Shown here one piece after another: positions 23,848 through 28,479 of a stretch of 64,000 nt of DNA (position 1 is its first letter; the number at the start of each line of letters is the position of its first letter). A program made the translations under genes and the position numbers. The notes under the pieces were generated by a model. That model saw nothing but the letters and a program-made list of their open reading frames with translations, had not been told where the DNA came from and did no database searches. This stretch comes from Atopobium deltae (GTDB lineage: Bacteria > Actinomycetota > Coriobacteriia > Coriobacteriales > Atopobiaceae): contig NZ_KQ959516.1 of assembly GCF_001552785.1 (NCBI RefSeq), forward strand, positions 89,853-153,852. The letters run 5' to 3'.

Positions 23848-25374
23848 TTACGCTTGGCGCGCCTCCTTCAAAAGCTCGAGGCCGCGCTCTTCAAACATCA
23901 GCGCTTTGCTCGCGCGCGTGAACGCCTCAATGGGATGCGCCGACACAAACGACATGAAGCTGTGATCACACGACAGACGACTGACCATAACGAGCATCTC
24001 CTGCGCACTGCCAAAAGCGGTATCCACAAATGCCAGCGCCGCATCAACATGGGCCGATACCTGCTGCGCATCAGTCGCCATGCGCTTGCAAATCGAAGCG
24101 AAGCTCGCCTTAATAACCTCAAACAAGCCTTGCGTTGTCGCAGCAGCCGTACCCGTCTGAATCAACGCCTGGTTAGTACTGGCGCGAATCTCGTCGAGAA
24201 TAGCAGCGGTTTTGCTCATCAGCTCAAGCGTAGCAGCATCGATTTTACCCTCGGATTTCAGTTGTGCAAGCTGGCTTGTAGCAGTATGCGCAAGGTCATC
24301 AATGCGATGGCACAAGGCAGTAGCATCCACATCAACCAACTGTTCTTGCAAATCTTGCAAGTTGCGCTTGACGCCTCGACAGGCCTGCTCAAAGCGCTGT
24401 TGCGCATGCACTTCCAGAAGCAGGGCATGTATGAGCAGATTAACAACCGCGAGGCGCTCGGCAAAGGCAGCATTTTGCGCACGCAGGACGATGTCTTTAC
24501 TCACGGTCTTCTCGAGAATTTCGTCGACCTTATAGTCATCCTCATATTTGCGGAACAAATCAAGATAAATCGAGAAGTCCTCGGCGATGCGCTGATCCTG
24601 AATGTACTGCGAGACAAGGTTCAAATCGACGGGGAGCTTCTCGGCGTCGTAGGCATAAATGATGCGCGAAAGGTCTTCCCAACCGCGGGCGGTGACGATG
24701 CGAGCGCCACCCGAGACGGCGCGAACCTTGTAAAACGAATCGGGTTTGTTGGCCAAAAACGTCGTGATGACGGGGTGCACGCCATGCGCCACGGCATAGT
24801 TGAGCCATACCTCGAGGTCAGCCTCAATGTCGATGCGCTTCATGCGGTCCATCATAGCGGGGTCAAACTCGCGGGCCGAGCGATTGTACTCGGGAGGATT
24901 ACCAGCGCACACAATCACCCAACCTGCAGGAAGGCGATGCTGGCCGAAGGTTTTATACTGCAAAAACTGCAGCATGGCAGGCATTAAGGTCTCACTGGCG
25001 CAGTTGATCTCGTCCAAAAACAAGATGCCACTGCGCACACCCGACCGCTCGATACTGTCGTGTACGGCGGCGATAATTTCGCTCATGGTATAGCGAGAAA
25101 CTCGATAGCTTCGATCATCAAACGTGGCCTTATCGATATAGGGCAAGCCCAGCGCCGACTGACGCGTGTGATGCGTGATGGAATACGACACAAAATTGAT
25201 GTCCATACGCTTGGCAATTTGCGCAACAATAGCAGTTTTGCCAATGCCTGGAGGGCCCATTAAAATCAGCGGGCGCTGCATTCTGAAGGGGATGCGATAT
25301 GCACCGAACTCATCCTTGGATAAATAGGCCTTAATTGCACCTTCTACCTGCTGTGTTGCTTCACTAATGTTCAT
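23848..25374 (-). CDS. MoxR-type AAA+ ATPase
   Basis: 508 residues. AAA+ core at ~1-260: Walker A MGPPGIGKT (~40-47), Walker B ILFLDEINCA, sensor 1 VCAGNPPEYN, and an arginine-rich DPAMMDRMKRID. Residues ~290-500 are long helices, probably coiled coil. MoxR ATPases act as chaperones that mature or remodel partners together with VWA proteins. The VWA gene lies directly upstream (10-nt gap), so this is a MoxR-VWA pair. ATG 25374 has AAGGA with 7-nt spacing and replaces the longer frame. An inverted repeat CAAGCGTA-TACGCTTG spans the stop codon but lacks a U-tract. Confidence 0.88.
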   Translation of the reverse strand: MNISEATQQVEGAIKAYLSKDEFGAYRIPFRMQRPLILMGPPGIGKTAIVAQIAKRMDINFVSYSITHHTRQSALGLPYIDKATFDDRSYRVSRYTMSEIIAAVHDSIERSGVRSGILFLDEINCASETLMPAMLQFLQYKTFGQHRLPAGWVIVCAGNPPEYNRSAREFDPAMMDRMKRIDIEADLEVWLNYAVAHGVHPVITTFLANKPDSFYKVRAVSGGARIVTARGWEDLSRIIYAYDAEKLPVDLNLVSQYIQDQRIAEDFSIYLDLFRKYEDDYKVDEILEKTVSKDIVLRAQNAAFAERLAVVNLLIHALLLEVHAQQRFEQACRGVKRNLQDLQEQLVDVDATALCHRIDDLAHTATSQLAQLKSEGKIDAATLELMSKTAAILDEIRASTNQALIQTGTAAATTQGLFEVIKASFASICKRMATDAQQVSAHVDAALAFVDTAFGSAQEMLVMVSRLSCDHSFMSFVSAHPIEAFTRASKALMFEERGLELLKEARQA

Positions 25375-25384
25375 ACCATCATCC

Positions 25385-26947
25385 TTAATAGACTGACATT
25401 GATTCACATTGTCCTGAATTTATCGTGAGTTGTATAGCCCAGGCAGGCACCAAATCCGGTCGGTGGTCCTCGTCATAAAAGACGAACGCCACTTTGTAGG
25501 GTGGCATGGACTCAGGATAGATTCCCCAACCGTCGGTAAAGTAAATCACGCCTGCTAAATCATCAAATTCTCCCGCCTGGCGAAGTTTTTGAATGTAGCG
25601 AAATGCGGGACGAAAGTCGGTGCCGCCAAAACCCGAAAGCTTGATTTTTTTGCGCCACTGATTCATGTCGCCGAGACTCGTAATTTTGGTATCCGAACGC
25701 ACCTCGAGGTCACACTGAATGATGTGGATGTTGATCTTTTGGAAGAACGATTCTGTGCTCGAGAGCACGTCGTAGGTAGCATCCACAAACGATTGCACAA
25801 TTTTGCCCGTAACCGAGCTCGAGGTGTCGATGACGATCACAAAATCGCGAATTTTGTTTTTGTTGGTATATTCCAAGGGTTCGATAAGGGGCATGTCGTC
25901 ATACAACGACAAACCATAGGTGTAAAAGACATAATCAAACTCATCATCCGATACGTGCATTTCCTCTTGATAGCTGGCAAATTGCCGCAAAAACTCTCGA
26001 TAATCCAACTGCTCATGTTGGCTGACTTCCAGCTGATGGATAAGCTCGCGTAGCTTGGATCCGCGCTGGCGCGAAAGAGTTTCGAGGTCAACACGCATAT
26101 TGCGCGCGATGTTCGACCAGTTTTTTTCAGCGCGTTTCATTTGCGCTTCCGTTAAGGTGAGTTCGGAAGGCACACCCGATAAGGTCGGCTTTTGTTGGTC
26201 GGCATCGTCTGCGTCTGCGTCGTCGGCTTCTTTGGTTAAGTTACTTGCCGCTTGCTGTTTGGAAGCTTCTTGAGATGCGGAATCGTCGTTTTGTTTTTGT
26301 TGGGGTTGCTTGGCTTGTTGGACTTGCGGCTGCTTTTGTTTGGACGCTGCGTCTTGTTGGGTGCGCAGGGCGTCGTACCACAGCTCGTGATCATCCACAA
26401 AACAGAGCGCTTCCCATTGCTCGTGCTGCTTGACATAGGCTTCGTGCAGCGCGGATGGGGCTGTATCAGTCGTGGAGGTATCGCTGACCTGCGGGGCCTG
26501 CGTGAAGTGGTGATACAAGCGCTCGGCCGTCAGCTGTGCGTTGGTTTGACGCATAAGAAGGCTCAGCAGCTCGTCGATCTTCTCGCCACGCTCACCTGGA
26601 CGAGTGCCCACAATGTCGCTGCTAATCATTTCGGCGATAATATCGCAGGCAAGGTTCCAGGCGTGGCTATGAATGCGCTTGCCGATCAGAGGATGCAAAA
26701 ATAGGCAGTGCGCCACCACGTGCATATAGTCGTGCAGAGGCAGCTCGCCCGTTCGAGAAAAGAGCTCGATGAGCTGATTGGGATCGACAAACAGCTGCTG
26801 CCCGTTGGTGGCAAAACAGGTTTTTTGCTGGTGCATTTGCACGTCGAGCGCCCCGAGTGCAGCGGCCAAAAAATGGTTATTCGCGACAAGGTTCGCCTGT
26901 ATGAGCTGCACAATGCGCAGTGCTAAATCTATGCGATCCTCACTCAT
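25385..26947 (-). CDS. VWA-like / DUF2201 metallopeptidase-like protein
   Basis: 520 residues. Residues ~10-120 resemble the putative metallopeptidase domain found with MoxR ATPases; the zinc motif reads H72-D-Y-M-H76 followed by H80, an HDxxH instead of HExxH. A ~100-residue Gln/Lys/Ser/Asp-rich linker separates it from a VWA-like domain (~340-515) with MIDAS DTSSSVTG, TDFRPAFRYIQ and IYFTDGWG. Such proteins are the substrate-binding partner of a MoxR ATPase. It is cytosolic, with no signal peptide. It begins 12 nt after the stop of the repeat-protein gene, consistent with one operon. Confidence 0.82.
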   Translation of the reverse strand: MSEDRIDLALRIVQLIQANLVANNHFLAAALGALDVQMHQQKTCFATNGQQLFVDPNQLIELFSRTGELPLHDYMHVVAHCLFLHPLIGKRIHSHAWNLACDIIAEMISSDIVGTRPGERGEKIDELLSLLMRQTNAQLTAERLYHHFTQAPQVSDTSTTDTAPSALHEAYVKQHEQWEALCFVDDHELWYDALRTQQDAASKQKQPQVQQAKQPQQKQNDDSASQEASKQQAASNLTKEADDADADDADQQKPTLSGVPSELTLTEAQMKRAEKNWSNIARNMRVDLETLSRQRGSKLRELIHQLEVSQHEQLDYREFLRQFASYQEEMHVSDDEFDYVFYTYGLSLYDDMPLIEPLEYTNKNKIRDFVIVIDTSSSVTGKIVQSFVDATYDVLSSTESFFQKINIHIIQCDLEVRSDTKITSLGDMNQWRKKIKLSGFGGTDFRPAFRYIQKLRQAGEFDDLAGVIYFTDGWGIYPESMPPYKVAFVFYDEDHRPDLVPAWAIQLTINSGQCESMSVY

Positions 26948-26959
26948 ACATCATCCTTT

Positions 26960-28237
26960 TTAGAGTAAAAAATCATTCAAAAAATCGTCGGGGTCCGGCA
27001 CGGCAAAAAGCTCCTGTTTTTTTCGCAAGAGCCAGGTTGCGGCTTCGGCATACCCCGCTTCGGAGGCCTGCTGTATAGCATCCACAAATGCCTGCTCGTC
27101 GAATGCGGGTGTAGTGTGTGGCGTGGTGGAGGAGGCGTCAGCCATTGTTGTGTTCATCCACGGCTCAAGTTGATGCAAGGCTGCTACACAGCCATGGCGC
27201 GCAAGAAGCTGCAGAAGTGCATTGTTTTCGTCCACATTGCTTGAGGGGGACAAAAACTTGAGCATGCGCTGGATAAGCGCCACGTCGTCTCGAAGCCACG
27301 CAAGCTCATGCAGCTGCTGCAAAAAAATCTGCGGTGCATGCTCACACACGAATTGCATCACACGTTCATCAGCGCGAGGCACGATCGTCGATGCCATAAT
27401 ATGTGTGATTCGTGCGCTGTGGTCGGGCTTCTCGGTACGGTCGGACTTCTCGGCAGCAATGTCACCAAACACGCTGGGTTTCTCGGCAGCCACACTGAGC
27501 TTCTCGGCACGTATATGCAGCAGTTTTTGCGCAAGGTCAAAACAGATATCGGCGGTACGGTCGTCGCGCTCGTTTTTGTGGCGCACACTGTGCCACGCGC
27601 GGACCAAACAGGCGCGAAAAATGTCGTCAAAAACGTCGTCATCAAACAGGCCGTCGCACGCGATGCGATACACACAGTCGCAAGTACGCCGCAGGTCAAA
27701 TGGCTGCACGTAGAGTGCGCCAAGGAGCTGCTCTTTTCCGTTGAACGCCACGAAAATCTCGGTTGCCAGCGTCGGATCCATGGGGTTCAAAAACAGCGTC
27801 GGACTTGAATGCGTCAACGCAAAACGCGTGAAGACCTCTTCGTGTGGGAGCATTTCGATGTGCTTGCGCACGGAAGCATCCACCTCGCCGAGCAAATCGA
27901 CCCCCTGCTGCAAAAGCCAGCGCGCACAATCCTCGTGGGCGCAGCGAAGTGCAAGCGCAAGTGCCCAAGACGGATACGCAAAGGGTGCAAGAAGCTTCCA
28001 TATGCGCTGCAACACAGCCAAATCACCAAAGGCGGCGGCACGTTCGAGAAGATCAACGCATTGTGTTGCAGTAAGCTGATCTGCAACGGTCTCGAGATCC
28101 TCCAGCGCTTTGTCGAGACGCGTGGGTACGTCGGACGTAACTGTTGTGGACGCAGCCACTGTAGGCACACCCGCGGACGGACGCTCCTCTGTGAGCAACT
28201 CTTGCAATAACGAAACTGACACGTCACAAACATCCAC
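26960..28237 (-). CDS. Helical repeat (ankyrin-like) protein of the MoxR-VWA cluster
   Basis: 425 residues; I do not recognise a named family. Several helix-pair segments look ankyrin-like: AAAFGDLAVLQRIWKLL, LRCAHEDCARWLLQQGVDLL, LRDDVALIQRMLKFL, LLARHGCVAALHQLEPW and ASEAGYAEAATWLLRKKQEL. The centre (~250-275) has a degenerate AEK[L/P/S] repeat (SVAAEKPSVFGDIAAEKSDRTEKPD). GTG 28237 shares its first base with the TAG stop of the glutaredoxin gene and has no clear ribosome binding site, so translation is probably coupled. It likely serves as an adaptor or substrate of the neighbouring MoxR/VWA proteins; that is inference. Confidence 0.68.
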   Translation of the reverse strand: MDVCDVSVSLLQELLTEERPSAGVPTVAASTTVTSDVPTRLDKALEDLETVADQLTATQCVDLLERAAAFGDLAVLQRIWKLLAPFAYPSWALALALRCAHEDCARWLLQQGVDLLGEVDASVRKHIEMLPHEEVFTRFALTHSSPTLFLNPMDPTLATEIFVAFNGKEQLLGALYVQPFDLRRTCDCVYRIACDGLFDDDVFDDIFRACLVRAWHSVRHKNERDDRTADICFDLAQKLLHIRAEKLSVAAEKPSVFGDIAAEKSDRTEKPDHSARITHIMASTIVPRADERVMQFVCEHAPQIFLQQLHELAWLRDDVALIQRMLKFLSPSSNVDENNALLQLLARHGCVAALHQLEPWMNTTMADASSTTPHTTPAFDEQAFVDAIQQASEAGYAEAATWLLRKKQELFAVPDPDDFLNDFLL

Positions 28238-28479
28238 TACGCAAAGGCGCGATCGAGATACTGAATAATGTCGTCAGATTCATACAGCGGCTCGCCATCA
28301 ATAAACAGGCATGGAACCTGCGACTTGCCGCCCTTCTCGGCCAAAAACCGTGCATCGGTTTCGGATTCGCTGACATTATGCAGCTCAATATGCATGTTAT
28401 GCTGCTCGATAAAACGCAGTACTTTGACACAATACGGGCAAGTTGGACGATGATACAGTTGTAAATCTTGCGTAGGCAT
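28237..28479 (-). CDS. Glutaredoxin
   Basis: 80-residue glutaredoxin/NrdH-type thioredoxin fold. The active site is RPTCPYCVKV near residue 13, the cis-Pro region SQVPCLFIDGEPLYESDDI follows, and the length is that of GrxC-like proteins. It reduces disulfides with glutathione or thioredoxin reductase. ATG 28479 with GAGAGGTG upstream is preferred over GTG 28488. It overlaps the next gene by one base and is the first gene of the MoxR-VWA run. The extra Cys in VPCLF next to the cis-proline is noteworthy. Confidence 0.9.
   Translation of the reverse strand: MPTQDLQLYHRPTCPYCVKVLRFIEQHNMHIELHNVSESETDARFLAEKGGKSQVPCLFIDGEPLYESDDIIQYLDRAFA

Follow-up and report, generated by a model that had tools for sequence, protein, structure and literature searches.

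A repeat protein linked to a MoxR-VWA/DUF2201 pair in Coriobacteriia: probable third component and candidate client adaptor

The four-gene cluster of Atopobium deltae

Coriobacteriia are a class of gut and oral bacteria. The window analysed here is a stretch of 64,000 nt from the genome of Atopobium deltae, whose assembly comprises 1.45 Mb in 35 contigs. It contains four abutting genes on the minus strand. The first one encodes an 80 aa glutaredoxin with a CPYC motif (28237..28479; PF00462 and PF13417). It starts with an ATG preceded by a good ribosome site; the longest ORF reading begins at GTG 28488. The second gene (26960..28237, minus strand) codes for a 425 aa alpha-solenoid repeat protein, the predicted adaptor, and its GTG start overlaps the stop codon of the glutaredoxin gene by one base. 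Downstream, separated by 12 nt and preceded by the ribosome site AAAGGATG, the gene for a 520 aa VWA/DUF2201 protein is located (25385..26947, minus strand). After a further gap of 10 nt, which comprises the ribosome site AAGGATG, it is followed by the gene for a 508 aa MoxR-type AAA+ ATPase (23848..25374, minus strand; AAA_5 and bpMoxR). The four abutting genes, the shared base and the two gaps had been described in the first-pass annotation and were found as claimed. Judged from the spacing, co-transcription of the four genes is plausible. Promoter- and terminator-like sites occur in the cluster stretch at chance level. According to family scans, luxS and a C69 dipeptidase gene are neighbours of the cluster. 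The arrangement exceeds chance, since the order repeat protein - VWA - MoxR was found again throughout the Atopobiaceae.

The VWA/DUF2201 protein and the MoxR ATPase

The VWA protein is composed of an N-terminal metallopeptidase-like domain (DUF2201_N), a Gln/Asp-rich linker and a C-terminal VWA domain. It belongs to the DUF2201 proteins, with 44.3 bits for PF09967 and 28.4 bits for PF13203, both above the curated cut-offs. The HExxH motif of DUF2201_N is degenerate: In HVVAHCLFLH (residues 76-85; 26693..26722, minus strand), the His residues are kept and the catalytic Glu is replaced by Val, so that the window protein reads HVVAH. The same Glu is replaced in the VWA proteins linked to a third protein wherever the motif is readable, while the histidines are kept. 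As the catalytic Glu is lost, these proteins should not be peptidases, and an active metallopeptidase was ruled out for those examined. In this respect, the earlier designation of the VWA protein as metallopeptidase-like has to be corrected. The metal ion-dependent adhesion site (MIDAS) is intact. Its motif DTSSS (residues 374-378; 25814..25828, minus strand) is conserved in the alignment, GGTD and TDG complete the site, and the pattern DxSxS...T...D is retained in the third-linked VWA proteins.

The ATPase has intact Walker A (GPPGIGKT), Walker B (ILFLDE) and arginine-finger (DPAMMDR) regions as well as a helical C-terminal extension. These motifs together with the adjoining VWA gene identify it as a MoxR protein. 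It is 51-68% identical to the MoxR proteins from the same cluster of relatives; its bpMoxR score is barely above the cut-off (27.4 vs 27). Larger MoxR ORFs of about 770-900 aa with an extra C-terminal part were observed in the molybdopterin-linked branch described below (L129, L142, L144-L146 and L149-L154). Beyond the MoxR gene, two genomes carry tandem genes that were judged by eye to be DUF262-like (GmrS-type; L152, 706-2830; L153, 3560-5699).

A third protein with exchangeable repeats and a conserved end

The third protein of the Atopobiaceae has a length of about 400 residues and is an alpha-solenoid. An AlphaFold2 model of the window protein is a helical solenoid (pLDDT 85.5, pTM 0.84). 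The protein had been described as ankyrin-like, but this resemblance is weak and not decisive: A VIA-align comparison with the ankyrin fold yielded Z values up to 9.7 with an rmsd of 7.2 over 261 residues, which is below the trusted level for helical repeats. Ankyrin repeats above the Pfam cut-off were not found in it; the best match, Ank_2, reached 16.4 bits vs a cut-off of 27.3. A Foldseek search with the solenoid returned nothing decisive.

A longer third protein accompanies the same VWA-MoxR pair in family f2, which is called Eggerthellaceae here because of its place within the class, and in two more families; the gene of this protein is located 5' of the pair on the same strand or is transcribed divergently. 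The front part of these proteins consists of leucine-rich repeats (LRRs) of the BspA type. Of 14 third proteins from outside the alpha-solenoid group that were scanned, 10 exceeded the Pfam cut-off for LRR_5; these domain counts, like the motif counts below, are sequence-based. Over their last about 100 residues, the LRR-type proteins are related to the C-terminal part of the Atopobium protein, where the common helical region comprises about residues 333-412 (27002..27241, minus strand). An HMM of this region yields matches in both directions between the solenoid and the LRR types, and hhalign connected the two with 96%, and with 90% at an E-value of 1.4e-6, across a short alignment of 65-94 columns in which the general similarity of helical repeats has to be considered. 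On the VWA tree, two LRR-bearing members, G077 and G285, branch beside the alpha-solenoid clade. Therefore, the type of repeat has changed, while the partner stayed.

The window protein terminates with the tail DFLNDFLL (26963..26986, minus strand), a member of the motif [D/R]-[F/L]-x-[L/I/F]-COOH, and the LRR-type third proteins terminate in a similar way. In 62 of 64 tails the last residue is L, F or I, the two exceptions being a fused protein and an orphan relative that had remained in the count; position -3 is mostly occupied by F or L and position -4 by D or R. In fused proteins, a linker replaces the tail. A divergent clade has Arg instead of Asp at position -4, which argues against a simple acidic ligand of the MIDAS.

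Linkage between the third protein and the VWA-MoxR pair

The repeat protein is present in 15 of 60 relatives; if the contig reaches far enough, its gene always adjoins those of VWA and MoxR on their 5' side. A scan of GTDB genomes revealed 23 repeat-protein loci in Atopobium, Olsenella, Parafannyhessea or uncultured members of these groups; VWA and MoxR accompany them wherever the contig allows. Among 298 Coriobacteriia genomes, a third protein is encoded within 3.5 kb at 98 of 105 loci with this VWA type: 62 times co-directionally 5' of it, 35 times divergently and once downstream. In one of the other seven loci (G077), an LRR third gene is located beyond MoxR. In the remaining six, no third gene was found close by, and several of them are visibly at a contig end; tblastn beside the VWA genes of G071 and G072 (L075, L076) did not detect a third protein either. 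By profile search with E-values calculated per genome, 77 of 78 genomes with the VWA protein have a third protein and two genomes have only the latter, a co-occurrence whose p-value overstates independence because the counted genomes are related. The search covered the class Coriobacteriia and a sample of its phylum, the Actinomycetota. In GC-rich loci, gene calls are heuristic: Here, a caller weighted by codon-position G+C was combined with the C-terminal profile, and by this combination the divergently transcribed LRR third gene was recovered.

In six genomes (G021, G025, G031, G082, G083 and G075), repeat protein and VWA protein are encoded by a single ORF of 949-1318 aa; in G026, only a frame shift interrupts the fusion. 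On the tree, the state changed between fused and unfused at least two times. The linkage survives co-directional, divergent and downstream layouts. These comparisons support a genuine and conserved partnership between the repeat protein and the MoxR-VWA pair, and conservation of the neighbourhood in Coriobacteriia, on which the first-pass proposal depended, is borne out by the 98 adjacent loci and the six fusions. Presence of the system is patchy, e.g. in 31 of 122 genomes of the family.

Relatives of the alpha-solenoid also occur as orphans, for which the fetched stretch yielded no VWA gene: at L063 (15089-16156 and 4367-6955; G077) and L060 (5444-6973; G306) as well as on a short contig, L064 (1-2132; G084). 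Near some loci, vsr-like and YhcG-type nuclease genes are located.

A molybdopterin enzyme as client candidate in one branch

One branch of the Eggerthellaceae has the LRR gene 5' of VWA in the same orientation. Here, genes for a molybdopterin oxidoreductase and a small ferredoxin-like subunit are present at 21 of 26 loci. At a further locus (L165) the contig ends, and the small-subunit genes are present, so that enzyme or small subunits were found at 22 of 26 loci. The best solved relative of the oxidoreductase is acetylene hydratase (2e7z, E 2.3e-64). At many loci of this branch, two additional small genes or a gene for a trigger factor (or a trigger-factor-like protein) are found in the vicinity. 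Two small proteins of about 91 and 110 aa, the ferredoxin-like subunit, which is degenerate, and the acetylene-hydratase-like enzyme form a conserved gene group beside LRR-VWA-MoxR (seen at L129, L142, L144, L146, L148, L149-L155, L165-L170, L172 and L173). The linkage is kept despite rearrangement at L172 (G280) and at L156 (G041), which belongs to another family. At L158, the third protein begins with a fused relative of one of these small genes (s0). In the divergent clade, the enzymes near four loci are distant ones only (24-25%).

The most likely client of the machine in this Eggerthellaceae branch is the co-encoded acetylene-hydratase-like oxidoreductase, a link confined to that branch. 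If so, the machine would act there as a cofactor-insertion or assembly factor. In 22 Atopobiaceae genomes, no molybdopterin oxidoreductase (PF00384) was found. Therefore, the client in Atopobium must be a different one, and a molybdopterin client was ruled out for this genus on the basis of these 22 genomes.

Proposed function

Repeat protein, VWA/DUF2201 protein and MoxR probably constitute one ternary remodelling machine with the third protein as client adaptor. The combination of exchangeable front repeats with a constant back end suggests an adaptor that chooses the target of the motor. By analogy to NorQD and to the known ternary MoxR-vWA systems, the third protein would recognize a client with its repeats and dock with its end. 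The C-terminal region and the tail would attach to the VWA protein, and the C-terminal carboxylate or an acidic residue might come close to the MIDAS metal. The MoxR ring, using ATP, would then twist or pull the VWA protein, and the client would be remodelled as in NorQ-NorD. For a fused repeat-VWA protein, AlphaFold2 yielded a model with a pTM of 0.48, which does not fix how the domains are placed relative to each other; in a Foldseek search with this model, VWA domains were retrieved, and a NorQD entry appeared at low rank.

More tentatively, these systems might represent a new class of three-part MoxR machines in Coriobacteriia, in which exchangeable tail-docked adaptors steer MoxR and a dead peptidase-VWA protein to various clients, including the assembly of an acetylene-hydratase-like enzyme in one branch. 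Little is known about the way in which MoxR-VWA motors select their clients, and a swap of repeats with a kept docking end would be a natural experiment on this question. Direct tests in cultured Coriobacteriia, many of which are gut anaerobes, would be possible with the fused forms, the tail motif and the molybdopterin enzyme encoded alongside.

Alternative explanations

The first-pass annotation had left open whether the repeat protein is client or adaptor of the MoxR-VWA pair. Linkage, fusion and the maintenance of the association in several gene orders fit best with an adaptor; the role of a client, which MoxR-VWA would fold or disassemble, perhaps by gripping its C-terminal tail, appears unlikely. 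The conserved tail could serve as such a grip, and constant linkage would fit a dedicated client as well. However, a client fused to the VWA protein in six genomes would be odd, the N-terminal repeats switch type while the VWA-side end is conserved, and in one branch a better client candidate is encoded in the same gene group.

We regard it as similarly improbable that the cluster is a conflict system (anti-phage or abortive infection) like the known MoxR-vWA ternary systems and that its repeat protein senses invaders. Such systems follow the same logic of three parts, the third of which varies (PMC7159879), the MoxR protein resembles bpMoxR, and the patchy presence mentioned above would fit as well. 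On the other hand, family scans did not reveal an effector domain on the VWA or the third protein, and PADLOC yielded weak ATPase similarity only. Furthermore, the clustered flanks contain mainly metabolic or housekeeping genes in stable synteny, and a molybdopterin enzyme adjoins the system in one branch.

The glutaredoxin had been proposed to tie the activity of the cluster to the redox state, which is not borne out by its distribution. Among 61 Atopobiaceae genomes, a relative is present in 54, and only in A. deltae (G000) and Atopobium minutum (G001) is it located at the cluster. In A. fossor (G002), it is encoded elsewhere in the genome, and at the loci of other genera checked, no glutaredoxin was found. 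As the relative lies away from the cluster in nearly all related genomes, the glutaredoxin is considered a passenger, and a role as machine component was ruled out by this distribution; from the gene content of the relatives, we judge it to be a bystander and an ordinary family member. It is accordingly very improbable that the four genes form a redox-regulated module with the glutaredoxin as regulator of the repeat protein or MoxR, in spite of the one-base overlap in the window and the adjoining gene in A. minutum.

Comparison with known systems

Literature searches did not retrieve a paper joining MoxR with DUF2201, COG3864 or Eggerthella, and the few publications on MoxR and leucine-rich repeats, judged by their titles, concern other matters. 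The proposed adaptor-containing machine can be compared with three groups of systems. The first group comprises ternary MoxR-vWA systems with unrelated third proteins, i.e. VMAP, iSTAND, FtsH or beta-propeller proteins (Kaur et al., 2020, PMC7159879). They share with the Coriobacteriia loci the combination of MoxR and VWA with a conserved, partly variable third protein as well as the features of the MoxR ATPase and the VWA MIDAS. In contrast to them, the third protein here is an LRR or alpha-solenoid protein whose C-terminal region and tail are its own, the VWA partner is a DUF2201 protein, and effectors were not seen. At the sequence level, scans of the third proteins yielded no match to VMAP domains (Pfam) or to the iSTAND NTPase core, and the window protein models as all-helical. 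Likewise, neither FtsH nor a beta-propeller was matched in the third protein, nor a fused beta-propeller in the window VWA protein (Pfam).

The canonical DUF2201-MoxR pairs (L110, L111) also comprise a DUF2201 VWA gene adjoining MoxR. They differ by a complete HExxH motif, the order MoxR-VWA and the lack of a detectable third protein of this kind beside them.

NorQ-NorD and CoxD-CoxE, pairs for metallo-cofactor insertion, have the MoxR-VWA pair in common with the Coriobacteriia loci, and for NorQD it has been proposed that ATP drives a twisting and stretching of the VWA protein (PMC13036017). The machine described here has the repeat protein as an additional component and the DUF2201_N domain on its VWA protein, and its presumed client belongs to the DMSO-reductase superfamily. 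Nevertheless, CoxDE serves a Mo enzyme, and one branch of the Coriobacteriia loci adjoins a molybdopterin enzyme.
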